Of a DNA stretch of 41,041 nt, positions 4,806 through 27,570 are shown one piece after another. Source of the stretch: Anaerolineae bacterium (GTDB lineage: Bacteria; Chloroflexota; Anaerolineae; B4-G1; SLSP01); contig JALOOJ010000010.1 in assembly GCA_025454475.1 (NCBI GenBank), positions 1 to 41,041 on the forward strand. The letters run 5' to 3'. The first letter of the stretch is position 1. Each line of letters begins with the position of its first letter. Below the pieces are notes generated by a model that was given only the letters and a program-made list of their open reading frames with translations, made no database searches and was not told the DNA's origin. A program made the position numbers and the translations under genes.

Positions 4806-5678
4806 ATGAAGGAGACGAAGCCCATCGGTTCCACGGGAGAGATCGATCCCGCGGCAAGCGGCGATGCTATGAACGACTTCCTGCGGCTGGCCGAAGGAAT
4901 CGCTTCATGCTACAGCCAGGCACAGCAGGTGGAAGCAGTGGCGTTGGGTGGCTCAGCGGCGTCGGGTCTGGTCGAGGCGGGCTCTGACATCGATCTTTAC
5001 GTCTACCTGAACGCCCCGTTACCCCTACAGGTTCGCAGCAGCATCGCGCGCGCCGCTGCATCCTACGCAGAGGTGGATAACCAATTCTGGGAGCCCGGCG
5101 ATGAGTGGATCGACAGGGTGTCAGGTATTCACGTCGACGTGATGTTTCGCGACATCGGGTGGATTCAGGACCAACTGGACCGAGTGCTGCTTCATTTTCA
5201 GGCAAGCGTCGGCTACACGACGTGTCTGTGGCACAATGTGATGACGTCGAAGCCGCTCTATGACCGCGGAGGCTGGTTCCGACGATTTCAGGAGCAGGCC
5301 GCGCGGCCCTACCCGGAGCAACTTCGGGGCGCGATCATCGAGAAGAATCACCCGATTCTGCGCACGACCGCCTCATCGTATCTCTACCAACTGACACGGG
5401 CTGTCGCGCGTGAGGACTGGATCAGTGTGAACCACCGCGTCGCCGCCCTGCTGGCGAGCTACTTCGACATCCTATTCGCCATCAACCGAACACCGCATCC
5501 GGGTGAGAAGCGACTGCTGCAGATCGCGCTGTCCACCTGCGCGCGGACGCCTGAGGGGATAGTCGAGCATATCGAGGCGCTTCTGAGGGCAACTCATAGG
5601 GCAGAGGTCCTCACCAGCGCCGAGTGTCTCATCGACGGCCTGGAGAACCTGCTCAGGGCCGAAGCCTTGATTGCGTAG
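4806..5678 (+). CDS. Nucleotidyltransferase-domain protein (Pol beta superfamily)
   Basis: The 290-residue soluble protein has a clear nucleotidyltransferase signature at residues 48-67: GGS (G48-S50), a short spacer, then SDIDLYVY with the two metal-binding Asp at D61 and D63. The rest is a mostly helical C-terminal domain of about 180 residues, similar in organisation to DUF4037 or aminoglycoside-nucleotidyltransferase-like proteins. Such enzymes transfer NMP to small molecules, tRNA or proteins; the acceptor is unknown. The ATG follows AGGAGC. The gene sits in a same-strand row between the ICMT-like gene and the GH3 gene, but nothing links their functions. Confidence 0.78.
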   Translation: MKETKPIGSTGEIDPAASGDAMNDFLRLAEGIASCYSQAQQVEAVALGGSAASGLVEAGSDIDLYVYLNAPLPLQVRSSIARAAASYAEVDNQFWEPGDEWIDRVSGIHVDVMFRDIGWIQDQLDRVLLHFQASVGYTTCLWHNVMTSKPLYDRGGWFRRFQEQAARPYPEQLRGAIIEKNHPILRTTASSYLYQLTRAVAREDWISVNHRVAALLASYFDILFAINRTPHPGEKRLLQIALSTCARTPEGIVEHIEALLRATHRAEVLTSAECLIDGLENLLRAEALIA

Positions 5679-5738
5679 GGGCCGGCAACCGCGCTATCTT
5701 GCGCGTTAGGCTGCATCCTGCACCTCGGGAGGCAATGG

Positions 5739-11278: not shown

Positions 11279-11659
11279 CTAGCGAAGGTAGCGCTTGATC
11301 TTCCCGAGCAACTGCTCTGGGTCAATCGGCTTCGACACAAACTCGCGGATGCTGAGCAGTTGGTTGGTGGGAAAGGTCTCCGCGTACTGCGAGGCGGCGA
11401 TCGAGGACACCATCACAATCGGGATCTTGCTCAGCGTTGGGTCATCCGCGATCTGCTGCGTCGTGTAGTACCCATCGAGCGGCAGGGCCATCATCACATC
11501 CATCAGCACGAGATCGGGCAGAACCTCACGCATCCGGGCGAGGCCGGCCTCTCCGTTGGGCGCTTCGTCCACATGATAGCCCGCACTCTCCAATACCAGG
11601 CGGGTGGCGAGAACCAGATCGGGGTCGTCATCAACTATGAGTATCTTCTTGGGCTCCAT
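11279..11659 (-). CDS. Stand-alone response-regulator receiver (CheY-like)
   Basis: This is a 126-residue single receiver domain. The acidic pocket is IVDDDPD near the N-terminus, the phospho-acceptor is D54 in LVLMDVMM, the beta4 block is IPIVMVSS and the conserved lysine lies in FVSKPID. There is no DNA-binding or enzymatic output domain. The ATG at 11659 has GGAGG seven bases upstream; the longer frame from 11695 has no such site. It starts 41 nt after the histidine kinase stop and is the obvious phosphotransfer partner. Its output is presumably by protein contact or by relay to another protein. Confidence 0.9.
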   Translation of the reverse strand: MEPKKILIVDDDPDLVLATRLVLESAGYHVDEAPNGEAGLARMREVLPDLVLMDVMMALPLDGYYTTQQIADDPTLSKIPIVMVSSIAASQYAETFPTNQLLSIREFVSKPIDPEQLLGKIKRYLR

Positions 11660-11700
11660 GGGAGTTCCTCCAGTTCGTGCTGAGCGATCGGACACGGTTA

Positions 11701-13671
11701 TTATGACATGGACACGCCGGACGGGCCAGTGCTCACCGACAGCGCGTCGGTCGGCCTCGCGTCGGATGGCGACTCCTCGGACATCAACGGCAGTATCACC
11801 GTGAACGTCGAGCCCTTTCCAAGCGCGCTGCTCACACGAAGGCTCCCACCGTAGCGGGTCACAATGTCTTTGGTGATGACCAGCCCCAGGCCTGTGCCCT
11901 GTTTCACCTGTTCCTTTGCGTTGGGCGCGCGGTAGAACTCCTCGAATAGATGCGGCAGAGCGTTGTCGGGGATGCCAATGCCCGAGTCCGTGACGATGAG
12001 CCTCGCGGCGCCGGCTTGGCGCTCGAGTGTGAGCTCTACCATGCCTCCGCTGGGTGTGTATTTGACCGCATTGGAGACGAGGTTGGTCACCGCCCGGTCG
12101 ATTTCCTCATCATCGGCCGCAACCGTCAGCGTAGCCTCCTCGGGGAGGTCGAGCCCGAAATCGATCTGCTTTTCCACTGCGGCGGCCTGGTACCGATCGT
12201 GAATCCTGCGGACAACCGTCATGAGATCGACGGGCGCCATCTGCGTTGTCCGCCGGAGCCCGGCCTTACCGGCGGCGACGTCGAGCAGGTCGTCGATCAA
12301 CGTCTGGAGGAACTCGTTGCGGCGCAGAGCTCGGACAATCATGTCGTTCTGTACCGTCGAGAGGCTGCCGGCATAGCCTCCGGCAAGCGTCTTGAGCAGG
12401 CTGTGCACGACGCCGATTGGCGACCGCAGCTCGTGGGTCACCAATAGCACGAACTTGCGCTTAGCTTCCTCCAGGTGCTCGATGGCTTCGTAGGCCATCG
12501 CATTCTCGATGGCAATGCTCCCGTGGCTGGCCATGGCGCGCAGAAACTGCTCATCTTCGCTGGTGAAGCACTGGACCCGATCACAGTACACGCGGATGAT
12601 GCCCAGAGGGCCGGACTTGCCCGTGAGCGGTGCCGTGAGCGTAGCGCGGATGCCCTCGGCGGCTGCTTCAGCCGGGTATTGCAGCCGCGCATCGGTTGAG
12701 ATGTCCGGCACGGCGACGATCTCTCCCTGGAGGACCTGCTGGACCAACGGATTCTGGTCCACGAGCAGGCATCCTTTCTGGAGGTAGGCATCCCTGAGGC
12801 CGTAGGTGCTGGCGAGGCAGAGCTCAGTGCTGGTCTCTTGGAGCAGGCGGATCGTGCAACCCTTCACCTTCATCACGCTAGCCGTGCTCCGTGTCAGACG
12901 GTCAAGCACTTCCTGAAGCTCCAGCGTCGAGCTGACAGCCTGGGCGCTCTCATATAGAGCGGCAACCTGGCCGATAGCCCTCTGCAGATCCTGCCCGAGT
13001 TGCACCATCTCGCCCTCGCGCGCACGGAGCCGGCGCGTGGTACGGGTGGCCAGGTATGCCGACACGAACACGGCGCTGGCAAAGAAGAAGAGCACGGAGA
13101 AGACATACAGTGGCAGCGCGTACAGCTCTGTAGGGAGCAAGCCTTTGACATGATGGTGCGGCAGGACCCCTGCGTACTCCAACCAGGCAGTCGTGGAAAG
13201 CAGCAGGGAAGCCAACCCGGTGAAGAGGAACGTATCACGCGCCGACAGCAGAATCGCGGACAACGTTGTGTGGAAGAAGAAATACAGAATCGCCGGGCTC
13301 TCGATGCCACCGGAGAAGTGGATGAGCGAGGCCATTGCGATCCAATCGACACCAATCTGGACGCGTGCCAGCCTGCGGGCGCTGGCGCTGATGCCGGTGA
13401 GGTCACACTGGATCTTTGCCAGCCAACGCTGAAAGATTACGTTGTACGCCAGGATCGCGACGCCCGTGACGTACAACTCCAGTGTGTTGAGGCCCAGGCC
13501 CAGGAGCGTATTGGCGACCCACGTGGCGACGATCACGCCGCCTCCGGCAACCCACCGTAGGCGGCTCAGCCAGTGCAGGCTCATACAGAGCTCATACTCG
13601 ACAGGCATCCGGCCGAGGTGGCTCGTGCTCCAGGCAACTGGGGCGCGGTCCGAGGTTGGGGCCTGATTCAT
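11701..13671 (-). CDS. Membrane sensor histidine kinase with GAF domain
   Basis: The protein has 656 residues. An N-terminal membrane region of about six helices (residues 30-190) has almost no extracellular loop, as in kinases that sense within the membrane. A short linker helix follows, then a GAF domain (about 245-385), a HisKA dimerisation domain with H413 in VTHELRSPIG, and a HATPase domain with the N box (DRAVTNLVSNAVKYT), G1 (DSGIGIPD) and G2 (GTGLGLVIT). It autophosphorylates H413 and should pass phosphate to the receiver encoded next. The gene lies 69 nt downstream of the 24-haem cytochrome gene on the same strand, so a role in sensing redox state or the electron acceptor is a reasonable inference. 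The signal is unknown. Confidence 0.92.
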   Translation of the reverse strand: MNQAPTSDRAPVAWSTSHLGRMPVEYELCMSLHWLSRLRWVAGGGVIVATWVANTLLGLGLNTLELYVTGVAILAYNVIFQRWLAKIQCDLTGISASARRLARVQIGVDWIAMASLIHFSGGIESPAILYFFFHTTLSAILLSARDTFLFTGLASLLLSTTAWLEYAGVLPHHHVKGLLPTELYALPLYVFSVLFFFASAVFVSAYLATRTTRRLRAREGEMVQLGQDLQRAIGQVAALYESAQAVSSTLELQEVLDRLTRSTASVMKVKGCTIRLLQETSTELCLASTYGLRDAYLQKGCLLVDQNPLVQQVLQGEIVAVPDISTDARLQYPAEAAAEGIRATLTAPLTGKSGPLGIIRVYCDRVQCFTSEDEQFLRAMASHGSIAIENAMAYEAIEHLEEAKRKFVLLVTHELRSPIGVVHSLLKTLAGGYAGSLSTVQNDMIVRALRRNEFLQTLIDDLLDVAAGKAGLRRTTQMAPVDLMTVVRRIHDRYQAAAVEKQIDFGLDLPEEATLTVAADDEEIDRAVTNLVSNAVKYTPSGGMVELTLERQAGAARLIVTDSGIGIPDNALPHLFEEFYRAPNAKEQVKQGTGLGLVITKDIVTRYGGSLRVSSALGKGSTFTVILPLMSEESPSDARPTDALSVSTGPSGVSMS

Positions 13672-13740: not shown

Positions 13741-16700
13741 TCAGGGAAATGCGAACGGTGGGTTCGATACGGACAAATTCACGTAGGGCCAACTCCTGCC
13801 GTGGCAGTTCTGGTTTGCGCAGAAGGTCTCCTCCTCGTGGCAGTCAACACAACTGCCGTCGAACGTGTAGCGATGGTCGGCGATCCAAGTGCTTGAGAGG
13901 TGGGTCGGCGGCTGCCAAGCAGGCCCAAGCTTGATCTCGGGTGCCGGCTCCCCTTCCTCGACGGTCTGCGGAATCGTGTGACAGATCGTGCAGTGCAGAC
14001 GGATCGACTGATCACCATCGGCCTGGGCATAGTGCTTACCATTGTGGCAGCGGAAGCACCCAGGGTCCTCAAGGTGGGCCAGGTTGTCCGGGTAGGTCGT
14101 CGAGAAGACCTGTTCCTTGGGGAAGTGAGAGATGGCGTACATGTCCTTGAGTTCCTGAACCACATCAGCCAGGACATCCTGCTGGGTCCCGTAGATGCTC
14201 GGATATGACGCCTGGTAGAACGCCGGAATGGCCTCGATGGCCTGGATAGCGGCCTCTTCGTCCGGCCCTGCCTCGAGCGCGTTCCAGGCTTCGCGCCTCA
14301 GATAAGGCAGATCGGTGGGCAGCACGCCGTTGGCCAAAGCTTCGTCCAGCATCTCGTTGCTCGAACGGAAGATGTGCGATGCACGGTTGTGGCAATCGAT
14401 GCAATCCATCTCGCGCACCTCGTACTGAGCAAGCTGGTCCTCAGTCAGTGGGTTGGTCACATCGACATAGGTCACGACCTTCCCGTCGATCTCGGCCCGC
14501 ACCCAGGGGATGATCTGTCGCTGCGGATCGGTGGCGACGTACTCCACCTTGTTCTCGATGTGCCAGTGGATGCCCTGCCCTTGCCCCGCGCGCTCGGTCC
14601 CGCCGCCGATCTTCAGGAGCATCGTGGTGGTAGAGCGGGAGTTGTCCTCGTCGTTGGCGAAGTGCGGGATCTCTATAGCACGATCGGCGTAGAAGACCTC
14701 GGGCCAGTGGCAGACTTCACAGACATCGCGCGCCGGGCGTAGCGTCTCGACGGGTGACGGAATTGGGCGTTCCCAGCTATTCGTGGTGTAGAGCCAGAGC
14801 TCGCGCAGGCCGTTGAGCTTGGCGTTGAACTCCGCGCCGAGTCCGGGGCCGACGTGGCATTCCGCGCAGTCCACGTTGGCGTGGAGCGAGGTATGGTAAG
14901 TCACATACTCGGCGCGTGTGGCGTGGCAGAGCTCGCCGCAGAACTCGGTCGAGGCGGTGAACTCGAGCAGATAGTGAAGGCTGACCCACCCAACAAGCGC
15001 TGAACCGAGGACAAGCAGAACCATGGTCGCGGTACCCCTGCGATGCTCTCGCAGCCAACCTACGGCTCCCTTCCTCGTGACGCTACGGTTGCGGAGGACC
15101 AGCGCGGCAAGGAGGATGGCAAGAAGGAATCCCCCGACAATGCCGCCGATGATGCCGAGGGATAGGTTGAGGCTCTGGCGGCGCTCCGCCAAGGCTTGAT
15201 CGAGCTCGCCCACATAGGCGCGGCCCTCGATCCGGTACTGTGGCGTCGTGCGAGATTCGGGCGGCGCGTCGGGTGTGTCCGAAGGCGCCGCGCGGAAGAG
15301 ATCAGTGGCGCGAACCTCGGCGTAACCCAGCGCAGCGAAGTCGAGGCGGCCCTGATCGTGCGTGTGACAGTCCGGGCAGCGAAGCGCCTCGGAGGCGGGC
15401 GCGACTTGGTGGTTCAGCGTGAACAGCAGCTCGCTGGTGGTGGGTGCCCAGTTGCCCGAGTAGTCGACGCCTGCGGCCACCACGCCGTCGGCGACAGCCG
15501 CGTTCAGGTCGCCGGTGATGGCGAACGTGCTTACACTGATCGGGATGGCGTCTCCCGACGCCGCGTCAGCCGGCACGCTGGATACCACGGCCCTCCAGGG
15601 CGCAAGCCTTGCCGTGGCATCATCGATGGAACCAATAGGCCCATCTGGGCCCTGCGCGTCGCCGTTCCACCAGCGGTAGACGGGAACGACTCCGCTTTCC
15701 AGTTCGGATACCGGTGTGTACAGCCCATTCTCCTGCAGCAGCGACTGGGTCCAGTCCTGAGCCACGAGCGCGGGGTAGGCCGGATCGCGAGCGACGGCGG
15801 GGATGTGGCAGGTCTGACACGCGACGCGGTCGAGGTGTCTATCGATGGCGGTGAAGCCTGTTGGATGGTCTCCATCGTGGCAGGTGGTGCAGTCCAGGGC
15901 CAGACCAGGCTCGTCAGAGCCGGAGCCAGGAAAGTCGTGACCGTCTGCATGGTGGCAATCGACGCACTGCAGCCCGCTGGAAACGTGGATATCCCTATTG
16001 CCCAACGTGGGTGAAGCGCCGTGCTCGGCGCCGGGCCCCCCCAGGATGCTCTCGTGACAGCGGAGACACGTGGCGCTGGTCGGGCTCTGGACGTTCCGAA
16101 CGACCTCGAGGACATCGATGCCCGGGGCGGGCACGATCCGCAGTACGCCGTTGACGTTGGCGACGGTGCGCGCGTAGTTCGGCCCGTGGCACATCAAGCA
16201 GTCGACATTCCTGCCGTCGGCTTCGGTCAGGGCGTCCGGTGGGTTGGGCCTGTTGCCAACGCCCACATGGCACTGTGCGCATCCGCCGAGTTGCGCCGGC
16301 TTACCGGGATCCTGTGGCTGAAGGAGGTCCAGCCAGTTCGTCTCCGCTACCGCAGTCGGGAGTCCGACGAATGCGGAGTTGGCGCCGATGACGCTGCCAG
16401 CGCCCTGATCCACGCTCTGTGCCACCCCGAGCCACGAGTAGTGTGTGGACCCTGCGACCTCCGCGCCAGCCTCTGGGTGACAGGTCAAGCACGTCTCCGG
16501 CCCATCGTAGCGGGTGAGGTTGCTGTGTGGTGAGCCGGCGTCTGGCTCTGCCAGGGCGCTCAAGAACCGTGCGCGCTCGGGCTCGAATCCCAGCGCCAGA
16601 AAGCCGAGGCGTCCGCCACGCGTATGGCAGTCAGTGCACGCGAGCGCCTCTTCGGCAGGCGCCACCCCGTGATTCTGGGCCCAGAGCATCTCCGTGGTTA

Positions 16701-18030
16701 TCCATCCGAGCTCGCCGCTGAAATCGGCGCCGCTGCTCGCCATTCCTGAGGCCGTCGCTAATGGCCAATCCCAGCCGCTCCAGTAGGCGGTCACATCTGA
16801 GGAGCTATCGGCGAACAGGTTGGGTGTAACGAGGGTGTTGTTCCCCGCGTCATAGGGCTGCACACCGCTGAACCGCTTGAACGGCGTGATCTTCCCATCT
16901 CCCAGAGCACCCTGAGGTGCGTTCAGCGGCACGACCTGGTTCGGGTCTATGGTATCTCTTACGGTGAGGAAGGTCGTCGCGCCGTTCCACCAGCGATAGA
17001 CGGGGTTGACCTCGCTCTCGTTGCTGAAGGAGCCCATCTGGGTGTCGTAGACGACGTTGCCCGCTGCGTCTGTCTCGATGGTAGGCTGGCCCGCGGCGTT
17101 CACGATGCCGGCGGTCGACCAGTCCCACGTGAGCCTGAGCGCCTGCCCACGAGCGATCTCGGGGATGTGGCACGTCTGGCACGCCACAGACTCTGTGTGC
17201 TGTGTCAGGGCTGCGCGGCGAGGGCTATCCTGGTGGGGCGCGTTTTCGCCAGTGTGGCAGTCGTCACACGTGACGGGCGCCTCACCACCGTAGAGCCGGC
17301 CGGCGATCGCGTGGTCCTGGCCGCCGTGGCAACTGACGCAGCTGAAGCCCAGGCCGTCCGTGCCCATGTGGACATCCAGCTCGCGGCTCGGTGCGCTCAA
17401 CGCGGCGTCCAGGTTGCCGTGCCTGACGGCGTCGTCACCATCCGCAAAGTGACACGATCCGCAGTTGGCGCGTCCGGGGGCCGCAACGCTCTGTGCTACC
17501 GCGGCAAGGTTCACGGGCTCCCAGAGGTCACCGGACCCCGGTGGGAACTCGCGAGCCTCGCCGAGGACCACGTAACCTGCCGCGGTCGGGAACTTGCGGT
17601 AGGTCCCTGTGCTGTCGTGGCAGACCAGGCAGTCAACGTCAACCTCGGTCGCGGTCTCGAAGAACGATGGGCCTGTGTAGCCATAGCCCACGTGACACGA
17701 CGCACACCGGGGCTCGTTTCCAGCGATCGCCATCAGCGTGTTGTTGATGACGACGTTCTTACCAAGCTGCCGCCCCGTGACAGGATCGGTGGCCTCCCAC
17801 GACCAGTGAGAGGAGGCCATCACCTCTTGCCCGGCGAGGTAGTGGCACGTCAGGCAGGCTGCTGTGACCTCCTGTGGGGCGGTGAAGGGGCCGGCTAGCA
17901 CCGTGAAATGGCTGTGGTCCTGCGTGTCGTTCTGGGCGGCTGCGGGCTCACCGGCCGCAAACACGACGCCGGCGCACAGCAGCGCGATCGCCGCGATGAA
18001 GAGAGTCCAACCCCTGGGTGGAGACTGCAT
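13741..18030 (-). CDS. 24-haem cytochrome: OTR-like octahaem x2, two TM helices, NapC/NirT-like octahaem module
   Basis: The protein has 1429 residues from the ATG at 18030 (AGGAG eight bases upstream; signal peptide about 1-32). Haem sites by first Cys are: module 1 at 59, 109, 134, 190, 231, 255, 284, 465; module 2 at 514, 584, 611, 655, 689, 714, 738, 885; module 3 at 1031 (CGELCH, CX3CH), 1055, 1104, 1210, 1325, 1347, 1394 and 1404 (CANQNCH, CX4CH). All others are CxxCH. Modules 1 and 2 are a tandem duplication sharing the SHWSW/THYSW, VYRWWNG and NHxVAPAxEAL blocks. They resemble octahaem tetrathionate reductase (OTR), which reduces tetrathionate, nitrite or hydroxylamine in vitro. Helices at about 954-979 and 1001-1023 flank a basic cytoplasmic loop. 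Module 3 begins like NapC/NirT quinol dehydrogenases. Predicted role: membrane-bound quinol-to-acceptor electron transfer outside the cytoplasmic membrane. The domain reading is strong; the substrate is not known. Confidence 0.92.
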   Translation of the reverse strand: MQSPPRGWTLFIAAIALLCAGVVFAAGEPAAAQNDTQDHSHFTVLAGPFTAPQEVTAACLTCHYLAGQEVMASSHWSWEATDPVTGRQLGKNVVINNTLMAIAGNEPRCASCHVGYGYTGPSFFETATEVDVDCLVCHDSTGTYRKFPTAAGYVVLGEAREFPPGSGDLWEPVNLAAVAQSVAAPGRANCGSCHFADGDDAVRHGNLDAALSAPSRELDVHMGTDGLGFSCVSCHGGQDHAIAGRLYGGEAPVTCDDCHTGENAPHQDSPRRAALTQHTESVACQTCHIPEIARGQALRLTWDWSTAGIVNAAGQPTIETDAAGNVVYDTQMGSFSNESEVNPVYRWWNGATTFLTVRDTIDPNQVVPLNAPQGALGDGKITPFKRFSGVQPYDAGNNTLVTPNLFADSSSDVTAYWSGWDWPLATASGMASSGADFSGELGWITTEMLWAQNHGVAPAEEALACTDCHTRGGRLGFLALGFEPERARFLSALAEPDAGSPHSNLTRYDGPETCLTCHPEAGAEVAGSTHYSWLGVAQSVDQGAGSVIGANSAFVGLPTAVAETNWLDLLQPQDPGKPAQLGGCAQCHVGVGNRPNPPDALTEADGRNVDCLMCHGPNYARTVANVNGVLRIVPAPGIDVLEVVRNVQSPTSATCLRCHESILGGPGAEHGASPTLGNRDIHVSSGLQCVDCHHADGHDFPGSGSDEPGLALDCTTCHDGDHPTGFTAIDRHLDRVACQTCHIPAVARDPAYPALVAQDWTQSLLQENGLYTPVSELESGVVPVYRWWNGDAQGPDGPIGSIDDATARLAPWRAVVSSVPADAASGDAIPISVSTFAITGDLNAAVADGVVAAGVDYSGNWAPTTSELLFTLNHQVAPASEALRCPDCHTHDQGRLDFAALGYAEVRATDLFRAAPSDTPDAPPESRTTPQYRIEGRAYVGELDQALAERRQSLNLSLGIIGGIVGGFLLAILLAALVLRNRSVTRKGAVGWLREHRRGTATMVLLVLGSALVGWVSLHYLLEFTASTEFCGELCHATRAEYVTYHTSLHANVDCAECHVGPGLGAEFNAKLNGLRELWLYTTNSWERPIPSPVETLRPARDVCEVCHWPEVFYADRAIEIPHFANDEDNSRSTTTMLLKIGGGTERAGQGQGIHWHIENKVEYVATDPQRQIIPWVRAEIDGKVVTYVDVTNPLTEDQLAQYEVREMDCIDCHNRASHIFRSSNEMLDEALANGVLPTDLPYLRREAWNALEAGPDEEAAIQAIEAIPAFYQASYPSIYGTQQDVLADVVQELKDMYAISHFPKEQVFSTTYPDNLAHLEDPGCFRCHNGKHYAQADGDQSIRLHCTICHTIPQTVEEGEPAPEIKLGPAWQPPTHLSSTWIADHRYTFDGSCVDCHEEETFCANQNCHGRSWPYVNLSVSNPPFAFP

Positions 18031-18274: not shown

Positions 18275-20461
18275 CTAGGGTCGAACCATCGCCGTCATAT
18301 CGACGGTGTTCTGGTCGCCCACGCTCGCGAGCGTATCATACAGAAGCTGCAGCACGTACTCGCCATTGTGGGCGAACGCTCCTGGGTCCTTGTGTACGTA
18401 CTGGTAGTTGTACGCAGCTCGAAGCAGACGCGGGGTCCAGCCTGTGTAGGCATTGGCACGGTCGATCTCGTCCGCGTCGACCAGACCGTTGGCATTCAGG
18501 TCCTTGAAGAAGTAGGGACTGTCGTCGCCGTAGACGATCGGCGCCCCAAGCGCGGTTGCCGCGTAGTCCAACATAGCTGCGTAGACCGCTTCCTCCATCG
18601 TGGCGATCTCTTCGGCGAGGCCCTCCTCGGTGTCGCCGTCGCCGTCGAAGTCCGCCTCCGACATGCGGATGGTTTCGACATCCTCCGTCTTGTGGCAGGT
18701 CCTGCACCTCTCGGTGTCCACCGCCAGGCCGTGCACGTTGTGGCAGTCAACGCACGTCTCCGCGCCCTCCACGTGCTCGCGCTGGCCGGCGTACTCCTGC
18801 CCGGCGTACTCATAGCCTCCATGAGCATCCCCGCCCAGCAGCGTTGCGCCGGCGGCAAAATAGTGGACGTTGACGAAGGGCTGATCCGTCATCGCGTCAT
18901 CGTCGCCCAGGCCGGCAATGACGCGATCGACGGAGGGGCCTGACTCGCGGCCCTGGTGGCAGCTCATGCAGACGTTGCTGTTGGGGTTGCCGCTGTCGAG
19001 GACAGCGCCGCTGGGGAACCGCACGGTCGTCACTACCCGCGGAGCGAAGTCCTCTGACGCGGGATCGTGGCAGGTGGTACAGGCCAGGCCTGCGGCAGGT
19101 GCGGCGGATACGGTCACACCGTCTTTGAGATACGTAGGCAGTCCTGTCGTGCTGTGGCATCTGGCGCACCCGGCACGGACCTCGCCAGCTCCATCAAAGT
19201 ACCGGAAGGCGTACTCAGAACTGGCGAAGTGCCCCGCGTCGATTCGGTGTGCGGAACTCAGGTCGACCGGGCTGGTGAGGACGCTGTTGAGGTCGGTGAT
19301 GCTGTCGTAGAGCAGCTCGATGATGTACTTGCCGCCGTGGGCGAAGGCGCCCGGATCCTTCACCGATAGATGCAAGTTGTAGGCGGCCTTCGCGAGTCTG
19401 CCGGTGAAGCTGGCATAGCCGTTGTCGCGGGAGGCCTCAGCCTCGTCGACAGCGCCATTCGCATTCGTGTCAGTTAGGAAGTAGGGGTACGCGTCCGGGC
19501 TGTAAGCGATCGCATTTCCCGTCACCTCCTTGCTGTAGGCTTGCATGGCCTCGGTGAGCATCGCCTGCAGCCCTTCGATCTCGTAGTACACCCCCTCTTC
19601 GGTGTCGCCGTCGCCATCGTAGTCGACTTGGGATCCCATCGTGCGAACGTTCTTGAGGGCGTCGACCGTGGTCACACCCTCGTGGCATTCGCTGCAGCGG
19701 TCGATGCGGATTTCGAGAGTATGGGGCTGGTGACAGTCGATGCACGTGTCGAGGCCGCCTGCGTGGTCGAACTTCACATCGTAGGCCTGGTTAGCATACT
19801 CGTACCCACCCATCGCCCACGTCCCGTACTGCGTTGCCGAAGCGGCAAAGTAGTGGATGTTGGTGAAACGAAGGTCCGCGCTGGAGACGTCCATGTCGGA
19901 CAGGGCGGCGGCCTCGATGGCAGCGTCCACGGTGGCGCCTGCAGCGCGACCTTGGTGACACTGCATGCAGCGGGCCTCGTCACCCAGACCGGTGACCTCC
20001 AGCCCCGATGGGAAGACGACGTTGGTAAGGATCACTGTGGCATCATTGTGGCAGGCGACGCACGTGATTACCGATCCGATCGCCGCGGCCTGGTCCACAA
20101 CACCCGCCGGGCTGCCATCCGCCCCAAGATAGTCCTGGTAGCCGTAGGTGCTGTGGCAACGTGCGCAGTCTTCCGGGACTACTGCGGGATCGTCCTCGTT
20201 CCAGTGCACGAAGGCTTCGGCGGCGGCGTCGGCATGGGGGGAGGACAGCCATTGGCCCTCGAAGGGCGCAGATACGGAGGAAGGGCACTCGGGCGGTTCG
20301 GGGCAGATGATAGGCTCTGGACAGGCTGCCTCTGGCGTGCAGGCCGTCGTCGGCGGTGGTGTCAGCTCCGTTGGCGCCTGCTTCTCCGCGTTGCACCCGG
20401 CCAGCGCCAGGCCGATCAAGACCATCATCGGCAGCAGGACGAACACTCTACGTGGCTGCAT
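18275..20461 (-). CDS. Decahaem c-type lipoprotein with duplicated pentahaem/EF-hand modules
   Basis: The protein has 728 residues. The ATG at 20461 follows GGAGGG and opens a lipoprotein signal with lipobox LALAGC (lipidated C23). A Pro/Glu-rich tether follows with Cys at 41, 47, 53 and 59. Ten CxxCH sites fall in two sets of five: 99, 134, 165, 240, 256 and 432, 461, 498, 570, 586. Each pentahaem set is followed by two calcium-loop motifs: DYDGDGDTEE (from D280) and DTNANGAVDEAE (from D331) in the first half, with counterparts from D604 and D654 in the second. Each half ends with a shared helical block containing KDPGAFAH. It should be a surface- or membrane-anchored electron carrier. It lies 244 bp upstream of the 24-haem gene on the same strand, and the two are probably partners. 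I do not recognise a named family for the whole protein. Confidence 0.88.
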   Translation of the reverse strand: MQPRRVFVLLPMMVLIGLALAGCNAEKQAPTELTPPPTTACTPEAACPEPIICPEPPECPSSVSAPFEGQWLSSPHADAAAEAFVHWNEDDPAVVPEDCARCHSTYGYQDYLGADGSPAGVVDQAAAIGSVITCVACHNDATVILTNVVFPSGLEVTGLGDEARCMQCHQGRAAGATVDAAIEAAALSDMDVSSADLRFTNIHYFAASATQYGTWAMGGYEYANQAYDVKFDHAGGLDTCIDCHQPHTLEIRIDRCSECHEGVTTVDALKNVRTMGSQVDYDGDGDTEEGVYYEIEGLQAMLTEAMQAYSKEVTGNAIAYSPDAYPYFLTDTNANGAVDEAEASRDNGYASFTGRLAKAAYNLHLSVKDPGAFAHGGKYIIELLYDSITDLNSVLTSPVDLSSAHRIDAGHFASSEYAFRYFDGAGEVRAGCARCHSTTGLPTYLKDGVTVSAAPAAGLACTTCHDPASEDFAPRVVTTVRFPSGAVLDSGNPNSNVCMSCHQGRESGPSVDRVIAGLGDDDAMTDQPFVNVHYFAAGATLLGGDAHGGYEYAGQEYAGQREHVEGAETCVDCHNVHGLAVDTERCRTCHKTEDVETIRMSEADFDGDGDTEEGLAEEIATMEEAVYAAMLDYAATALGAPIVYGDDSPYFFKDLNANGLVDADEIDRANAYTGWTPRLLRAAYNYQYVHKDPGAFAHNGEYVLQLLYDTLASVGDQNTVDMTAMVRP

Positions 20462-20783: not shown

Positions 20784-21266
20784 ATGCGGAATCGAAGCAC
20801 GTTCATTGTTGCCGGGCTGCTGGTAGTTGCCGCCGTTGTGTACCTGATTATCTCGAGTACCGGCACGACAGCCCAGTACTTCCTCACTGTGGCGGAGCTG
20901 CGGGCGATGGGCGAACAGGCATACGAGCGGAACGTTACCGTGTCCGGCGCCGTCCTCGGCGAGACCATCTCGTATGACGCTATGCGTCCCCAAGTCACCT
21001 TCACGATCGTCCAGGTGCCGGCCGATCCTGACGAGGTGGAAGCAGCCGGAGGCTTGGCACAGGTGCTCCACGACGCTACCCTCGATGCTTCGCGGCCGCG
21101 GCTCGAAGTTGTCTACGACAGTGTGAAACCAGACCTTCTCACCAATGAGGCGCAGGCGATCGTGCGTGGCAAGTTGCGTGAGGATGGTCGTTTTCTGGCC
21201 GATGAGCTGCTGCTAAAATGTCCCTCGCGATATGAGGACGCGATTCCTGAGCAGACGGGGGACTAG
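20784..21266 (+). CDS. ccmE: CcmE haem chaperone, Cys (CxxxY) type
   Basis: The product has 160 residues: a short cytoplasmic start, one membrane helix (about 6-25) and an outward-facing OB-fold beta domain. CcmE takes haem from CcmABCD and hands it to CcmF for attachment to apocytochromes. Classical CcmE binds haem through His in a HxxxY motif; here the site is KCPSRYE, with C146 and Y150. This CxxxY variant is known from archaea and from Desulfovibrio, where it goes with a reduced Ccm set lacking CcmH. The first gene of the ccm operon, it is followed directly by ccmF-ccmG (stop at 21264-21266, next ATG at 21267). Confidence 0.9.
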   Translation: MRNRSTFIVAGLLVVAAVVYLIISSTGTTAQYFLTVAELRAMGEQAYERNVTVSGAVLGETISYDAMRPQVTFTIVQVPADPDEVEAAGGLAQVLHDATLDASRPRLEVVYDSVKPDLLTNEAQAIVRGKLREDGRFLADELLLKCPSRYEDAIPEQTGD

Positions 21267-23777
21267 ATGATTTCCGAGATTGGGCAGAACCTGGTTGGGC
21301 TGTCGCTGATCCTGTCACTCTACTGCGCAGTCGCGGCATACTGGGGAATTCGCCGCAGGGACGACCGCTGGGCCCTGAGTGCACAGCGAGGGATGATCGC
21401 GCTGGCAGGACTGCTTGGGGCGGCGCTATTACTGCTTCTGTTGGCGTTCCTGACTGATGACTTCGCGGTGCGATATGTGGCGCAGCACTCGGCCACGTTC
21501 ATCCCTGTCTACCTGAAGATCTCCGCAGTCTGGGCTGGGCAGGAGGGTTCACTGCTGTTGTGGTGCGCGATGCAGGCTCTCTTCGCGGCACTCGCTACGG
21601 CGCGTCCGTCCGAGAAGGCGCGCCCGCTGGTGCCGTGGGCCACGGTGTTCCTCAGTCTCATCACGGCCTTCTTCGTCGCCGTGACGGCGCTGCTCTCCAA
21701 CCCGTTTGTCCCTTCAGGCGTGGCGCTCACGCAGGGCCAAGGTCTCAACCCACTCCTGCGCCATCCGGGTATGATCTTTCATCCCCCAGCGCTCTATGTG
21801 GGGTACGTTGGGCTGGCGGTGCCCTTTGCCTTTGCCATGGGTGCGCTTGTTACCCGAAAACTGGAGGACTGGACTGCCGCTATGCGGACCTGGACCCTGG
21901 TCGCGTGGCTGGGGCTCGGGGTGGGGCTTCTTCTGGGGATGCGCTGGGCGTACGATGTTCTGGGTTGGGGCGGTTACTGGGGGTGGGATCCGGTTGAGAA
22001 TGCGGGGTTACTGCCCTGGTTTACGGCCACGGCGCTCGTGCACGGGGCGGTGATGCAGGAAGAGAGGCGGGGATTTCAGGTCTGGAACGTGCTGCTTGCG
22101 GTGTTCTCGTTCGCGTTAGTGCTGTTTGGGACCTTCGCGACCCGCAGTGGGATGATCCAGTCGGTTCATGCCTATGCGCAGTCAGACCTGGGCAGTTATT
22201 TCCTGTCCGCGATCGCTGTGACCCTCATCGGCTCGTTCGCGCTCTTGCTGAGCCGGCGCAAGGTGCTCGCGTCGCCGGCCAACCTGGAGACGTTACTCTC
22301 GCGCGATGGAATGTTCTTCCTCACGTTGGTTGTGCTCTCGTTGCTGGCGTTCTCGGTTTTCATCGGTAGCGTGCTGCCAACGATCACGGCGCTCGGAAGC
22401 GCGACGGGGCTAGGAAGCGCGGGGGCGCTTGCATCGCGGCGCTTCGAGGCGGGTCCGGCGTGGTTTGACCGCGTGACTGGCCCGCAGTTCGGCCTGTTGG
22501 TCCTGCTGATCGGAGTCTGTCCGCTCCTGGGACGTGCCACCGCGGCACTCTCCCGACTCAAGGCACGCGCGTGGCTGCTCGTCGTCGGCGCCCTGGGCGT
22601 TCCACTCGTGCTGGCTGCTGCAGGGCTCACCCAGGCGGTATCTCTGGTCGGGTTTTCGGTGGTGGGCCTCGCGGGCGTGGTTACGGTTGGCGAGATTGCG
22701 GATGGCGCGGCTGCGCGCAGCAGACGAACGCGCGAGGCTCCGCTCAACGCGCTGTGGCACCTCATTCGGTTGCAGCGGCGCAAGTATGGCGGTTACCTCG
22801 TTCACGTTGGCGTGGTTCTGATGGCCATCGGTGTGATCGGGACACGGCTCTACCCGTTTGAGGTACAGCAGACCCTGCAGGTGGGGCAACCGTATGAGGT
22901 CGGTCGCTACACCCTCGTCTATGAGGAGCTCAGACAGGAGTTCGTCGACGACCACTCGCGCAACTATGCGACCATCTCCGTCTACGTGAACGGCGAGCCC
23001 GTTGCCGTGCTCGAACCGCGGCTCGATCGATACTCAGGCACCGACCAGTCACTCAACATTCCTGCCGTGCGCCCGATGGTGCGCGAGGATCTCTATCTGA
23101 TCCTCGCCGGATGGTCCGACGATGGGGCGATGGCCACGGTCAAGATCGTCATCAACTCCCTGGTGAACTTCCTCTGGTTGGGCGGGCTGGTGTTCCTGGC
23201 TGGTGGCGCTCTGGCGCTGTGGCCTTCGATGCAGAGCCGGACTATGTCGGTGGTGGCTGCCGTTGTGGGACTGTCGCTCCTTGCGGGGTCTGCGTGGGCA
23301 ATGTGGGGAGCGTCGCACGGGATGGCCTCGAACGAAGGTGGGCGTCCCCTGGCGGGACAAGAGGCGCCGGACTTTCGCCTCGCCCTGCTGGATGGCGGTA
23401 CTGTGTCACTCAAGCAGTTGCGGGGTCAGGTCGTCTTGGTCAACTTCTGGGCCTCTTGGTGCCCCCCATGCCAGGAAGAGATGCCCGCTCTGCAGGCAAC
23501 CTGGGAGGAGTTCAGCGACCGCGGTGTCAGCTACATCGGCATCGCTTATCAGGACGAGAGAGCTTCCATAGACGAGACCGTCGCGGCCTTTGGTACGACG
23601 TACCCGGTTGGTGTCGATGCCGGTGACAGTATTGCCAGCCTCTATGGCATCACTGGTGTTCCGGAGACGTTCATCGTAGATCAGGATGGGCGTGTTGCGT
23701 ATGTCCACATCGGGCCGGTGTCGGCAGACTTGGTGCGATCCGAACTGAGCGCTTTGCTTGCGTCGGTTGATAACTAG
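21267..23777 (+). CDS. ccmF: CcmF-CcmG fusion: haem lyase plus thioredoxin-like thiol reductase
   Basis: This is a single 836-residue reading frame. Residues 1 to about 655 are CcmF: many membrane helices and the haem-handling WWD signature at 234-241 (WGGYWGWD, then PVENAGLLPW). After the last CcmF helix a new helix (about 655-680) leads into a ResA/TlpA/CcmG thioredoxin domain with GQEAPDFRL, the redox site WCPPC (C732, C735) and the cis-Pro block GVPETFIVD. CcmF attaches haem to CxxCH motifs; CcmG keeps those cysteines reduced. The two are normally separate proteins. There is no stop, internal frame change or repeat at the junction, so the fusion looks real. It would place the thiol reductant beside the lyase. 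Confidence 0.9.
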   Translation: MISEIGQNLVGLSLILSLYCAVAAYWGIRRRDDRWALSAQRGMIALAGLLGAALLLLLLAFLTDDFAVRYVAQHSATFIPVYLKISAVWAGQEGSLLLWCAMQALFAALATARPSEKARPLVPWATVFLSLITAFFVAVTALLSNPFVPSGVALTQGQGLNPLLRHPGMIFHPPALYVGYVGLAVPFAFAMGALVTRKLEDWTAAMRTWTLVAWLGLGVGLLLGMRWAYDVLGWGGYWGWDPVENAGLLPWFTATALVHGAVMQEERRGFQVWNVLLAVFSFALVLFGTFATRSGMIQSVHAYAQSDLGSYFLSAIAVTLIGSFALLLSRRKVLASPANLETLLSRDGMFFLTLVVLSLLAFSVFIGSVLPTITALGSATGLGSAGALASRRFEAGPAWFDRVTGPQFGLLVLLIGVCPLLGRATAALSRLKARAWLLVVGALGVPLVLAAAGLTQAVSLVGFSVVGLAGVVTVGEIADGAAARSRRTREAPLNALWHLIRLQRRKYGGYLVHVGVVLMAIGVIGTRLYPFEVQQTLQVGQPYEVGRYTLVYEELRQEFVDDHSRNYATISVYVNGEPVAVLEPRLDRYSGTDQSLNIPAVRPMVREDLYLILAGWSDDGAMATVKIVINSLVNFLWLGGLVFLAGGALALWPSMQSRTMSVVAAVVGLSLLAGSAWAMWGASHGMASNEGGRPLAGQEAPDFRLALLDGGTVSLKQLRGQVVLVNFWASWCPPCQEEMPALQATWEEFSDRGVSYIGIAYQDERASIDETVAAFGTTYPVGVDAGDSIASLYGITGVPETFIVDQDGRVAYVHIGPVSADLVRSELSALLASVDN

Positions 23778-23791
23778 GGGATGGGTGGACC

Positions 23792-24181
23792 ATGAGCCTG
23801 GGAACAATCCTGGTGAGTCTTGCGGTGGTGGTGGGTGTAGGGGCCTACGTGGCCTGGCCATTTCGGCGCACGGACGCGCTCGGGGCTGAAGCTGACGTGG
23901 ATCGCGTGGTAGAGGCATGGGTGAGGCGTGTGCAGACTGAGGCAGCCAGAACTGAGGCCGTGGGCAACAAGGCTGAGGCAATGCCAGATAGTATGGCGCA
24001 GCCGGTAGAGTCCGTATCAGCTCGGGCTCCAGGCGGCTCTGCGGTCAGTGCCGCCGTAACCACCGACACTGACACCGACGAGCCGGCCAACTTCTGCCCG
24101 TATTGCGGTCGCCGAGTCGAGCCGGACCACATGTTCTGCCCAAGGTGCGGCAGGCAGCTCATGAAGCAAGAGGTGCGGTGA
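23792..24181 (+). CDS. Membrane-anchored zinc-ribbon protein in the ccm operon
   Basis: The protein has 129 residues. One N-terminal helix (about 3-22) is followed by a variable Ala/Glu/Thr-rich linker and a C-terminal zinc ribbon with C102-x2-C105 and C116-x2-C119 (CPYCGRR...CPRCGRQ). It lies 14 bp after ccmF-ccmG, and its TGA overlaps the next ATG (TGATG). The linker follows the only helix together with the ribbon, so both are on the same side; basic residues after the helix (WPFRR) favour the cytoplasm. It may help assemble the Ccm machinery. It does not look like CcmH, which has an LRCxxC motif. Function unknown. Confidence 0.75.
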   Translation: MSLGTILVSLAVVVGVGAYVAWPFRRTDALGAEADVDRVVEAWVRRVQTEAARTEAVGNKAEAMPDSMAQPVESVSARAPGGSAVSAAVTTDTDTDEPANFCPYCGRRVEPDHMFCPRCGRQLMKQEVR

Positions 24182-25359
24182 TGCGGCAGCGTTGGCTAAG
24201 CATCAGCGCCCTGGCGCTGCTCGTAGCCGCGGTGTGGGTTGGTAACGTCGCCGCACAGGGGGGCGGTGACCGCATCGTAGGTACGGTCGTCAACGGCACC
24301 CCAGGTGGGACGCTGCCAGTTGGCGTGCCTGTGACGCTGCAGTTCTTTAGTGAGGGCGCATGGACTCAGGTCTACACGAGCACCCTGGCGACCGACGGTT
24401 CGTTTCGCTTTGAAGGCCTGAGCGCTGAGACCGGTAGCGACTTCTTGATCAGCTTGACCCATCAGGACGTCGCCTACTTCTCGCAACCAGCCACACTCGA
24501 GGATCGTGAGACAGTGGTTGACATCACCATCTTCGAGCCCACGGAGGACATATCGGGCGTCCAGGTTGACCAAGCGCACCTGTTCATCGTGCCGCTGGGC
24601 GACCGTATCCAGGTTGCTGAATACTACCTCGTCGGCAGCAGTGCTGAGCGAGCTTACGTAGGCACGCAGAAGACCGGGCAGGATAGACGAACGACGCTGT
24701 CCTTCACCGTGCCCTCAGGGGCCACATCACTAGGTTTCGAGGATAAAGGGCTGGGCGAGCGGTTCCTGGGGGACGCGAGCGCGTTTGCCGATACTATGCC
24801 GATCCTTCCTGGTACCGGTACGACCGAGGTGAGTTTCAGCTATGAGCTGGCGTACAGCGTCGGTATGGAGATTGCGCGTGTCGTCGATGTCCTGACGAAG
24901 TCGGTGGTGATCATCGTGAATGGCACCGAAGTCGGGATCGAGGGATCGGGCGTGATCTTCGCCGGTGTGATCGACACGCAGATGGGGAAGGCAGCTTCCT
25001 ACACGGCAGGCCCTCTGGAGCCCGGCAGTCCGCTTGTCGTGCGGTTCGTCCCGCAGACCAATGCCGCAACTTCGATGCAGGAGGGCGGCGATGGGGCACC
25101 GGCGGGCCGGGCGCCGCAGGAGCGCAACCCGGCAGTCGAGGCCGCGGTTGGCGCACTGGTGTTCGTGGGTGCCGGCGTTGGCGTCTACCAGCTCTGGCAT
25201 CGGCGGAGTCGCCCAACGCTGCCGGAGTCGGCGCGTGAGACGATCCTGGCGCTTGCAGCCCTGGACCGACGCCACGCGGAAGGTGCTATGGACGAGGACC
25301 AGTATACGCGCGAGCGCGAGGGGCTGATGCGCAAGGCTCGGGCGGTTCTCAAGCGGTGA
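24181..25359 (+). CDS. Signal-peptide protein with beta-rich domains and C-terminal TM anchor, ccm accessory
   Basis: The protein has 392 residues, starting at the ATG at 24181 in a TGATG overlap with the zinc-ribbon gene. A signal peptide (about 1-25, ending VAAQ) is followed by a carboxypeptidase-regulatory-like or CnaB-like beta domain (VGTVVNGTPGG ... GSFRFEGL), a second beta-rich domain, a membrane helix (about 318-338) and a short cytoplasmic tail with a helical block (RHAEGAMDEDQYTREREGL) like a SHOCT motif. The location between ccmF and ccmA points to a role in cytochrome c maturation, perhaps scaffolding or apocytochrome handling in place of missing CcmH/CcmI. I know no experimentally named family for it. 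Confidence 0.72.
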   Translation: MRQRWLSISALALLVAAVWVGNVAAQGGGDRIVGTVVNGTPGGTLPVGVPVTLQFFSEGAWTQVYTSTLATDGSFRFEGLSAETGSDFLISLTHQDVAYFSQPATLEDRETVVDITIFEPTEDISGVQVDQAHLFIVPLGDRIQVAEYYLVGSSAERAYVGTQKTGQDRRTTLSFTVPSGATSLGFEDKGLGERFLGDASAFADTMPILPGTGTTEVSFSYELAYSVGMEIARVVDVLTKSVVIIVNGTEVGIEGSGVIFAGVIDTQMGKAASYTAGPLEPGSPLVVRFVPQTNAATSMQEGGDGAPAGRAPQERNPAVEAAVGALVFVGAGVGVYQLWHRRSRPTLPESARETILALAALDRRHAEGAMDEDQYTREREGLMRKARAVLKR

Positions 25360-25369
25360 TCCTAGCGCG

Positions 25370-26863
25370 ATGCTCGAGATAGCCGGCCTGACCAAGTCAT
25401 TCGGCCCGCGCCAAGCTCTGGCGTCGGTCAACCTGTTGGTCGACGACGGCGACTTCGTGGTCCTGGCGGGGCCCAACGGTGCGGGCAAGACGACGCTTCT
25501 CCGCATACTGGCGATGCTGATGCGCCCGAGCTCGGGTACGCTTCTTCTTGGGGGTGTTGACTTGCTTCGGGCAGGGCCCGGGGTGCGGAGGCAGATCGGG
25601 TACCTCAGCCACCGCACGCTGCTCTACGACGATCTGACCGCTGAGCAGAACCTGCGCTTCTACGCGCGGATGTATGGTATGGCGGAGCCTGAGGCGCGGA
25701 TCGCCGAGTTACTGGCACGCGTTGACTTGGCGGAACGCCGCGGTGACCTGGTGCGTACTTACTCGCGGGGGATGCAGCAACGGCTGGCTGTGGCGCGAAC
25801 GCTGTTACACGAGCCGCGTCTGCTTCTGCTGGATGAACCCTACACGGGGCTCGATCCTGTGGCTTCCGACAGGTTGACTGCACTGCTCTCCGGGCTGAGT
25901 GGTGAGGGGCGTACGCTGCTGCTGACGACGCACGCGCTGGAGAGCGTGGCGTTGGCTGGTCGGCGGGGGGTGATCCTCAGCCGTGGGCGCGTGGTGTATG
26001 ATGGCGTGATCGACGACCCTGCGGGGTTCGGGGCGCGCTATCGTGCGCTGGTGGGGTCGCCAGCCTCTGCTTCCCCCCCTTCCGGCCCTCGGGCATCGGA
26101 ATACGTGTCCGCCCGTTCTGACGGGCGGAGAAAGGGAGCGGAATCCGGACCTCTCTCCACGACAGGGGGAGATACGAAGAGGGGGGAGGCGCCGGGCTAC
26201 CTACGGCAGGTGCTTGCTATCGTCGCCAAAGACCTGGCGGCGGAGATGCACACGCGTGAGATTTTCAGCGCGATGGCGGTCTATGCCATTCTGGCGATGC
26301 TCATCTTCAGCTTCGCCTTGGACCTCCGCGGGGCCGTGGCCCGGGCAGCGGCGCCTGGTGTACTGTGGGCGTCGATTGCGTTCGCCGGTACGTTAGGACT
26401 GAACCGATCGATGGCCCGTGAGCAAGAGAACGGCGGGATGGATGGATTGCTCCTGTCTCCCGCCGACCGCACGGTGGTTCTCGTCGGCAAGGCGCTGGGC
26501 AGTCTGGCGATGATGGCGGCACTGGAGGCGGTGCTGGTGCCGTTGGCCACGATTCTGTTTAACGTGGGACTTCTCAACGCGGGTGTGCTGGCGGTCGTTC
26601 TGGTGGGCAGTGTCGGGTATGCGTTGGTCGGAACCCTGCTCGCGGCGATCGCCATCAACACGCGTGCACGTGAGGTGATGCTCCCGATCTTGCTGCTGCC
26701 GCTGGTCGTGCCGATGCTCATCGCGGCTGTGCAGGTGACGGGTGGCCTCCTGGAGGGCTTGCGTTGGGCTGACCTGCGCGGATGGACCCAATTGCTGGTG
26801 GTGTATGATCTGCTGATCGCAGCAGCGTCGCTGTTAACATTCGAGATCGTGGTGGAGGCGTAG
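25370..26863 (+). CDS. ccmA: CcmA-CcmB fusion: haem exporter ATPase plus permease
   Basis: A single 497-residue frame. Residues 1 to about 228 are the ABC ATPase CcmA with Walker A GPNGAGKT (34-41), signature YSRGMQQR (131-138) and Walker B LLLLDEP (151-157). Residues 277-497 are CcmB: an amphipathic start (LRQVLAIVAKDLAAEM) and about six helices. CcmA and CcmB with CcmC and CcmD load haem onto CcmE. They are normally separate chains. The 48-residue linker (229-276) is rich in Ser, Pro, Gly and Arg and is encoded by DNA with strong inverted repeats, as if a mobile palindromic element had become translated. No stop or frame change interrupts it. The gene starts 10 bp after the previous stop. 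Confidence 0.9.
   Translation: MLEIAGLTKSFGPRQALASVNLLVDDGDFVVLAGPNGAGKTTLLRILAMLMRPSSGTLLLGGVDLLRAGPGVRRQIGYLSHRTLLYDDLTAEQNLRFYARMYGMAEPEARIAELLARVDLAERRGDLVRTYSRGMQQRLAVARTLLHEPRLLLLDEPYTGLDPVASDRLTALLSGLSGEGRTLLLTTHALESVALAGRRGVILSRGRVVYDGVIDDPAGFGARYRALVGSPASASPPSGPRASEYVSARSDGRRKGAESGPLSTTGGDTKRGEAPGYLRQVLAIVAKDLAAEMHTREIFSAMAVYAILAMLIFSFALDLRGAVARAAAPGVLWASIAFAGTLGLNRSMAREQENGGMDGLLLSPADRTVVLVGKALGSLAMMAALEAVLVPLATILFNVGLLNAGVLAVVLVGSVGYALVGTLLAAIAINTRAREVMLPILLLPLVVPMLIAAVQVTGGLLEGLRWADLRGWTQLLVVYDLLIAAASLLTFEIVVEA
26054..26197. repeat. Palindromic, REP-like insertion forming the CcmA-CcmB linker
   Basis: Inside the coding frame lies a perfect hairpin: TCCGCCCGT (26108-26116), TCTG loop, ACGGGCGGA (26121-26129). 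Around it, a 5' C-run (CTTCCCCCCCTT) faces a 3' G-run (AAGAGGGGGGAGGC) as imperfect outer inverted repeats, and TCTCC/GGAGA pairs lie within. Such nested palindromes are typical of intergenic repeat elements, not of coding DNA, and the encoded residues have no conserved pattern. Confidence 0.5.
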
Positions 26864-26868
26864 GCGCT

Positions 26869-27570
26869 ATGACAGGGGCTTCGGTCACACTGCGGCATAG
26901 AGATTGGGTTGGGCTCGCACTTGCGGGTCTGAGCGTGGTTTCATTTGTCGCGGCGCTCTGGATGGTATTCGGTTACGCGCCCCGCGAGGCAACGATGGGC
27001 GATGTGCAGCGAATCTTCTACTTCCACGTGGCGTCAGCCTGGGTTGGGTTCTTCGGGTTCTTCGTGACGTTTGCTGCCGGCATCCTCTATCTTGCCTATG
27101 CCGATCGGCGGTGGGACGTCGTGGCCCACGCCTCTGCACAGGTGGGCCTAGCCTTCATCACGATGACGCTACTCACTGGGATGCTTTGGGCCAAGCCGGC
27201 CTGGGGCGTCTACTGGACCTGGGAACCGCGTCTGACCATTTCCGCGGTGCAGTGGCTGCTCTACGTCGCGTATGCGATGCTGCGTGGATCGGTAACGAGC
27301 GCTGAGCGGGAAGCACGATTTGCTGCTGTATACGGAATCGTGGCCTTCGTCACCGTGCCTCTCTCATGGTTCGCCATCCGCTGGTGGCGGACGATCCATC
27401 CGCAGATTGTGTCAGGTGAGGGCATGGCCATAACACCGCCGATGGCCCAAACGCTGTTCGTATCTCTGGGTGCATTCACTCTGGTCTACGCCGCGCTGCT
27501 GCTGCAGCGCATCAGGCTGGCGGATGCACGAGATCGACTCGAGGCACTGCGTCTGGCTGGCGAGTCCTGA
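26869..27570 (+). CDS. ccmC: CcmC haem-handling protein
   Basis: The protein has 233 residues and six predicted helices. The family's WWD-type signature is at 112-119, WGVYWTWE, followed by PRLT. Conserved His in FYFHVASAW (first periplasmic side) and in TIHPQIV fit the two haem-ligand His of CcmC. CcmC places haem on CcmE. The usual Asp of the signature (WxWD) is Glu here. The gene follows ccmAB by 5 bp. CcsA-type proteins share the signature, but length and neighbours support CcmC. Confidence 0.9.
   Translation: MTGASVTLRHRDWVGLALAGLSVVSFVAALWMVFGYAPREATMGDVQRIFYFHVASAWVGFFGFFVTFAAGILYLAYADRRWDVVAHASAQVGLAFITMTLLTGMLWAKPAWGVYWTWEPRLTISAVQWLLYVAYAMLRGSVTSAEREARFAAVYGIVAFVTVPLSWFAIRWWRTIHPQIVSGEGMAITPPMAQTLFVSLGAFTLVYAALLLQRIRLADARDRLEALRLAGES

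Follow-up and report, generated by a model that had tools for sequence, protein, structure and literature searches.

What does a single polypeptide with 24 candidate haem sites do for its host: reduce a substrate, or conduct electrons? The question is raised by a gene on contig JALOOJ010000010.1 of the Anaerolineae bacterium assembly GCA_025454475.1 (Chloroflexota), of which a stretch of 41,041 nucleotides was analyzed (hereafter, the window). The gene joins, in one frame, two modules of the octahaem tetrathionate reductase (OTR) family, two membrane helices and an octahaem domain of the ImcH type. It is a new combination of known parts and is known from one metagenome-assembled genome. A preliminary description had read the protein as a self-contained quinol-to-acceptor wire in which a quinol dehydrogenase and a terminal reductase are fused. 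We regard it as fairly probable, judging from its sequence, that the protein is instead a membrane-anchored 24-haem electron conduit, in which the ImcH-type module sits at the membrane and is extended by the 16 haems of two OTR modules that no longer catalyse.

One frame with 24 haem-binding motifs

The fusion gene lies on the minus strand, a detail absent from the preliminary description, and its frame runs uninterrupted from 18150/18030 to 13741 (window coordinates). A start at ATG 18150 gives 1469 amino acids and a start at ATG 18030 gives 1429. The latter is the likelier start, because an AGGAG sequence is found 8 nucleotides upstream of it and a predicted signal peptide follows it. Residue numbers are counted from ATG 18150 throughout (1469-residue numbering). 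The protein is composed as follows:

13741..18030, minus strand: 24-haem OTR-OTR-ImcH fusion gene, start ATG 18030, frame open from ATG 18150
17953..18030, minus strand: signal peptide MQSPPRGWTLFIAAIALLCAGVVFA, residues 41-66, hydropathy peak 2.43
16561..17925, minus strand: module 1, OTR-family octahaem domain, residues 76-530
15286..16545, minus strand: module 2, divergent OTR-family octahaem domain, residues 536-955
15097..15153, minus strand: transmembrane helix 1, residues 1000-1018, counterpart of the C-terminal anchor of OTR paralogues
15022..15096, minus strand: positively charged loop (+6), predicted to be cytoplasmic from its charge count
14965..15021, minus strand: transmembrane helix 2, residues 1044-1062, counterpart of the one N-terminal anchor found in ImcH homologues of Anaerolineae
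13744..14964, minus strand: module 3, ImcH-type octahaem domain, extending to residue 1469

The fusion protein contains 22 CXXCH motifs; 1000 shuffled sequences averaged 0.06 and never had more than one. One CX3CH (residue 1071) and one CX4CH (residue 1444), both conserved in ImcH homologues, bring the total to 24 haem sites in an 8+8+8 arrangement. This count, the single uninterrupted frame and the two hydrophobic helices between the OTR and NapC-like parts are all as initially described.

Two OTR modules that kept their haem ligands and lost their catalytic residues

The first two modules are members of the OTR family. Its profile, TIGR04315, scores 651.8 bits over the whole fusion protein (cut-off 375). 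When the modules are scored separately in the genome scan, module 1 reaches 492 bits and exceeds the cut-off, whereas module 2 by itself stays below it with 166 bits. The solved OTR of Shewanella (SO4144; 1sp3) is matched by module 1 over the full domain length (E 8e-102), on which module 1 was judged; AlphaFold2 models were made separately for modules 2 and 3. Module 2 matches 1sp3 by sequence (E 2e-28), and the model of this module together with helix 1 (mean pLDDT 76) has 1sp3 as its sole significant Foldseek match, with a Z of 25.6 over 370 residues in an in-house structure aligner. The tandem of OTR-like modules that had been proposed is thus supported.

To see what the modules retained, 13 canonical or module-1-type OTRs were compared with both of them, with K153 and C64 numbered after 1sp3. 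The 15 invariant OTR histidines, eight from the CXXCH motifs and seven others, are all kept in module 1 and all kept in module 2. The position of K153, a lysine in 13 of the 13 compared OTRs, is occupied by R243 in module 1 and by E709 in module 2. Likewise, C64 is a cysteine in all 13; it corresponds to L139 in module 1 and is absent in module 2. Both modules therefore resemble SO4144 in their eight-haem layout and conserved histidines, and module 2 also in its fold, but differ from it by the loss of these two residues, their tandem occurrence, the membrane anchor and the fused ImcH.

K153 is presumably the lysine reported by Mowat et al. 2004 to ligate haem 2 of OTR; the residue number agrees. 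K110, a tyrosine-adjacent lysine, was considered as the catalytic ligand and set aside: its number differs from Lys153, and module 1 retains it. The catalytic second haem of OTR is ligated by a highly conserved lysine, and MmcA, an OTR relative that lacks the catalytic lysine, is an electron conduit (PMC11024163). This Methanosarcina protein is comparable to the modules described here in having the OTR fold without the catalytic lysine and, on the reading proposed here, in conducting electrons beside the membrane; it differs in having seven haems, in the loss of the haem 2 motif and in being a separate protein in the Rnf operon (PMC11024163).

OTRs of other genomes bear on C64 as well. Module-1-type OTR genes of two Anaerolineae species (L117 in genome G607 and L119 in G574) carry an in-frame TGA at the C64 codon (INNFU). 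SelA is found above its cut-off in G574 and as a fragment at a contig end in G607. Both genes are probable selenocysteine OTRs on this sequence evidence, and the combination of TGA and SelA fits a catalytic C64 and adds weight to it. A selenocysteine member of TIGR04315 has already been listed (PMC13188914). In another OTR gene (L126 in G678), an in-frame TGA replaces the first cysteine of the haem-3 CXXCH (VDU-LVCH). SelA was not found for G678, and this TGA may be a sequencing error or a sign of a broken gene.

With K153 and C64 lost, the terminal reductase of the preliminary description is not supported. It could be argued that the OTR modules still reduce a substrate, perhaps a changed one, and are driven by the fused quinol dehydrogenase. 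Such an enzyme would be in line with the strong OTR membership of module 1 and with the complete retention of the ligands of the seven bis-His haems, and catalysis might persist at haem 2 if it is held by histidine and open on its distal side, as in HAO. Yet, two residues kept throughout the compared OTRs are replaced in both modules, and we consider an active reductase unlikely. Module 2 as a second working OTR was rejected on the same loss.

An ImcH-type module behind a membrane hairpin

By profile and motif, module 3 is a NapC/NrfH-related domain of the ImcH type. The Pfam profile PF03264 (NapC/NirT) matches it with 45 bits (cut-off 24.1), and NrfH (2j7a_C) is matched by sequence with an E of 1e-7. 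Its AlphaFold2 model (pLDDT 79.5) finds NrfH as the best Foldseek match (probability 1.00, E 7e-3); the in-house aligner superposes 143 of 145 residues on 2j7a_C with a Z of 6.7, a value similar to that of unrelated single-helix matches. The similarity to NapC/NirT that the preliminary description had made a touchstone is hence present, but the module is of the ImcH type rather than a plain NapC/NirT protein. The ImcH family is recognized by a CX3CH adjoining a membrane helix and a series of CX2CH motifs (PMC6295460). Module 3 comprises a CX3CH (CGELCH, 1071), six CXXCH and a CX4CH. With the inner-membrane quinol oxidase family of Geobacter sulfurreducens ImcH (PMC6295460) it shares the CX3CH at the helix, the CX2CH series and the NapC/NrfH-like start; it differs by the missing stand-alone N-terminus, the fused OTR modules, a methionine-to-threonine change at haem 1 and the extra CX4CH haem, which is common to other Chloroflexota copies. 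The best matches are stand-alone proteins of 474-768 amino acids with 38-46% identity over about 410 residues. Note that Desulfuromonadales/Geobacteraceae homologues (L063, L083, L088, L099) stood in for G. sulfurreducens ImcH in this comparison.

All 12 conserved ImcH histidines are kept in module 3. The counterpart of NrfH Lys82, a quinol-site lysine, is K1111 and is kept as well (a lysine in 52 of 53 homologues). In the phmmer alignment, a glutamate is found at the position of NrfH Asp89. NrfH and CymA, of the NapC/NirT family, thus resemble the N-terminal part of module 3 in fold, in this lysine and in the acidic residue, but they have four haems compared to eight. The haem-1 methionine, two residues past the histidine (CX3CHxM), is T1078 in module 3 and a methionine in 48 of the 53 ImcH homologues. 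Its counterpart in NrfH, Met49, is essential for menaquinol oxidation (PMC10654088). The quinol dehydrogenase of the preliminary description is therefore weakened by the threonine at the Met49 position, while the retained Lys82-like residue remains in its favour.

Many Anaerolineae OTRs, of both module-1 and module-2 type, carry a single C-terminal membrane helix with which helix 1 aligns. Similarly, helix 2 aligns with the one N-terminal helix of Anaerolineae ImcH homologues. The three N-terminal membrane helices of ImcH are not found; the fusion has two, one of which probably derives from OTR, as the alignments suggest. Together with the short +6 loop, as expected for a cytoplasmic loop, the hairpin would place all 24 haems outside. 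The fusion probably originated from a C-terminal OTR anchor and an N-terminal ImcH anchor: a C-terminally anchored OTR gene would have run in frame into an imcH gene, and the two anchors would have become the hairpin that puts all haems on the outer side.

A putative electron conduit

As a conduit, the protein would work from the membrane outward. The CX3CH haem of the ImcH-type module would be where electrons enter from the menaquinone pool; they would then cross the remaining haems of module 3 and leave along the 16 haems of the OTR-derived modules. The latter modules would no longer catalyse and would serve as a wire or buffer. The final acceptor would lie outside the membrane and may be the co-encoded decahaem lipoprotein. 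Speaking for this reading are the haem ligands that persist beside lost catalytic residues, the precedent of MmcA, the TGA codons at C64, the ImcH motif pattern with its Lys82-like residue, a hairpin and loop that agree on one topology, and a lipoprotein gene that elsewhere pairs with imcH.

Several observations weigh against this proposal. The role of K153 as ligand is presumed, with the matching number of a lysine that is invariant in 13 of 13 OTRs, and module 1 retains two further lysines that canonical OTRs keep without exception, the K56-type lysine and K110. In either OTR module, the CXXCH histidine could still hold haem 2 as a five-coordinate catalytic site. At the other end of the protein, the change of the haem-1 methionine to threonine puts quinol oxidation by module 3 in doubt.

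Separate parts in relatives

The search sets, which overlap, comprised 400 genomes from the phylum, 396 from the class (OTR profile), about 99 near relatives, 48 genomes from the window's own order and 56 from a second order in which these proteins are common; a scan of the GTDB contig collection added 80 loci. In the DNA retrieved, 59 OTR-like and 111 ImcH-like frames were found (this one included), and only here do both occur in one frame. In every relative that could be read whole, the OTR and ImcH parts are separate genes, in agreement with the initial expectation that OTR and NapC/NrfH-type partners are normally separate proteins. The OTR-OTR-ImcH architecture is unique within this survey. 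No full-length match to the fusion was found among plasmids, and no report of an OTR-OTR-ImcH fusion was found in the open literature (subscription journals being outside the scope).

Another fusion of an OTR module does occur elsewhere in the class. In L193 (G772) and L155 (G702), it is in frame with a nine-haem, C-terminally anchored cytochrome. The complete copy has 17 haem sites; G772 has a single OTR module and G702 is cut by a contig end. No other OTRs stand closer to module 2 (90/86 support), and the K153 position is a glutamine in both. They are thus comparable to the 24-haem fusion in their kinship to module 2, the in-frame join to a membrane-anchored multihaem module and the absence of K153, and differ in that the partner is a nine-haem module with a C-terminal anchor and not ImcH. 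In G619, an OTR continues into further haems until the contig end. Separately, one cluster in G095 (L146:1811-11229) combines 22-haem, 32-haem and nine-haem cytochromes with a stand-alone ImcH downstream. The fusion's own genome also holds in-frame clusters of haem motifs elsewhere (G000:C71, about 4983-6880; G000:C92, about 186-980), which by their motifs are probably further multihaem cytochromes.

Genomic neighbourhood and integrity of the locus

The fusion gene is flanked by the following features:

18275..20461, minus strand: decahaem lipoprotein with two pentahaem repeats, upstream of the fusion, conserved neighbour of stand-alone imcH
11701..13671, minus strand: membrane histidine kinase with GAF domain, downstream, same strand as the fusion
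11279..11695, minus strand: response regulator, downstream, same strand, conserved in the sister genome G004
20784..27570, plus strand: cytochrome c maturation cluster (CcmE, CcmF-ResA/DsbE-like fusion, CcmA-CcmB fusion, CcmC), divergent

Homologues of the lipoprotein adjoin stand-alone imcH in at least 12 Chloroflexota loci, and those that match over nearly the full length are 47-57% identical. Since this pairing is conserved, the fusion occupies the place that imcH has in the pair. Within the genus, the genes for cytochrome maturation are inherited. In this cluster, CcmF is fused to a ResA/DsbE-like thioredoxin domain (21267-23777, plus strand), an arrangement kept in genomes of the same genus and family, and CcmA and CcmB share one frame (25370-26863, plus strand). 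Three unrelated open reading frames of the window had no match in PHROGs.

A genome of the same genus, G004, shows on one contig and in the same order a response regulator (78% identical), a kinase remnant, a lipoprotein remnant, CcmE and CcmF. This order indicates that the locus is coherent in its outer parts. The fusion gene is missing: a scar (L180:14064-16927) retains the response regulator, the kinase tail and a piece of the decahaem lipoprotein beside CcmE.

This scar, and the fact that each of the three modules has lost diagnostic residues, could point to decay, i.e., a fused cytochrome that lost its catalytic residues and is now drifting. We find this improbable, as all 24 haem sites, all 15 OTR histidines of each OTR module and all 12 conserved ImcH histidines are intact, and the 4.3-kb frame contains no stop or frameshift and keeps a third-position GC content (GC3) of 0.79-0.80 in all three modules. 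An assembly artefact joining separate otr and imcH genes is very improbable: the fusion is seen in only one of the surveyed frames and its genome is a single metagenome bin of 369 contigs, but no stop, frameshift or long repeat was found at the module junctions, GC3 is uniform, no further OTR or ImcH match in the bin passes the applied thresholds, and the identical outer gene order in G004 supports the locus, if not the two junctions directly. The preliminary description had held that separate genes in relatives combined with a mis-join would count against the fusion; the separate genes are there, and no sign of a mis-join was found in the assembled sequence.

Implications

Electrons normally leave the cell through several separate cytochromes that meet by diffusion. 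With about even confidence, we propose that the fusion is a single-polypeptide 24-haem wire leading from the quinone pool out past the membrane, built from two OTR modules retired from catalysis and an ImcH quinol dehydrogenase, in a host that may have no conventional outer membrane. If the chain is fixed in one protein, electron passage from the quinone pool to the exterior could be tested on one molecule. As a conduit, the fusion would also provide a bacterial case beside MmcA, in which an OTR enzyme became a conductor by keeping its haem ligands while its catalytic residues disappeared. Its probable origin suggests an evolutionary recipe by which a C-terminal anchor and an N-terminal anchor together make a hairpin.

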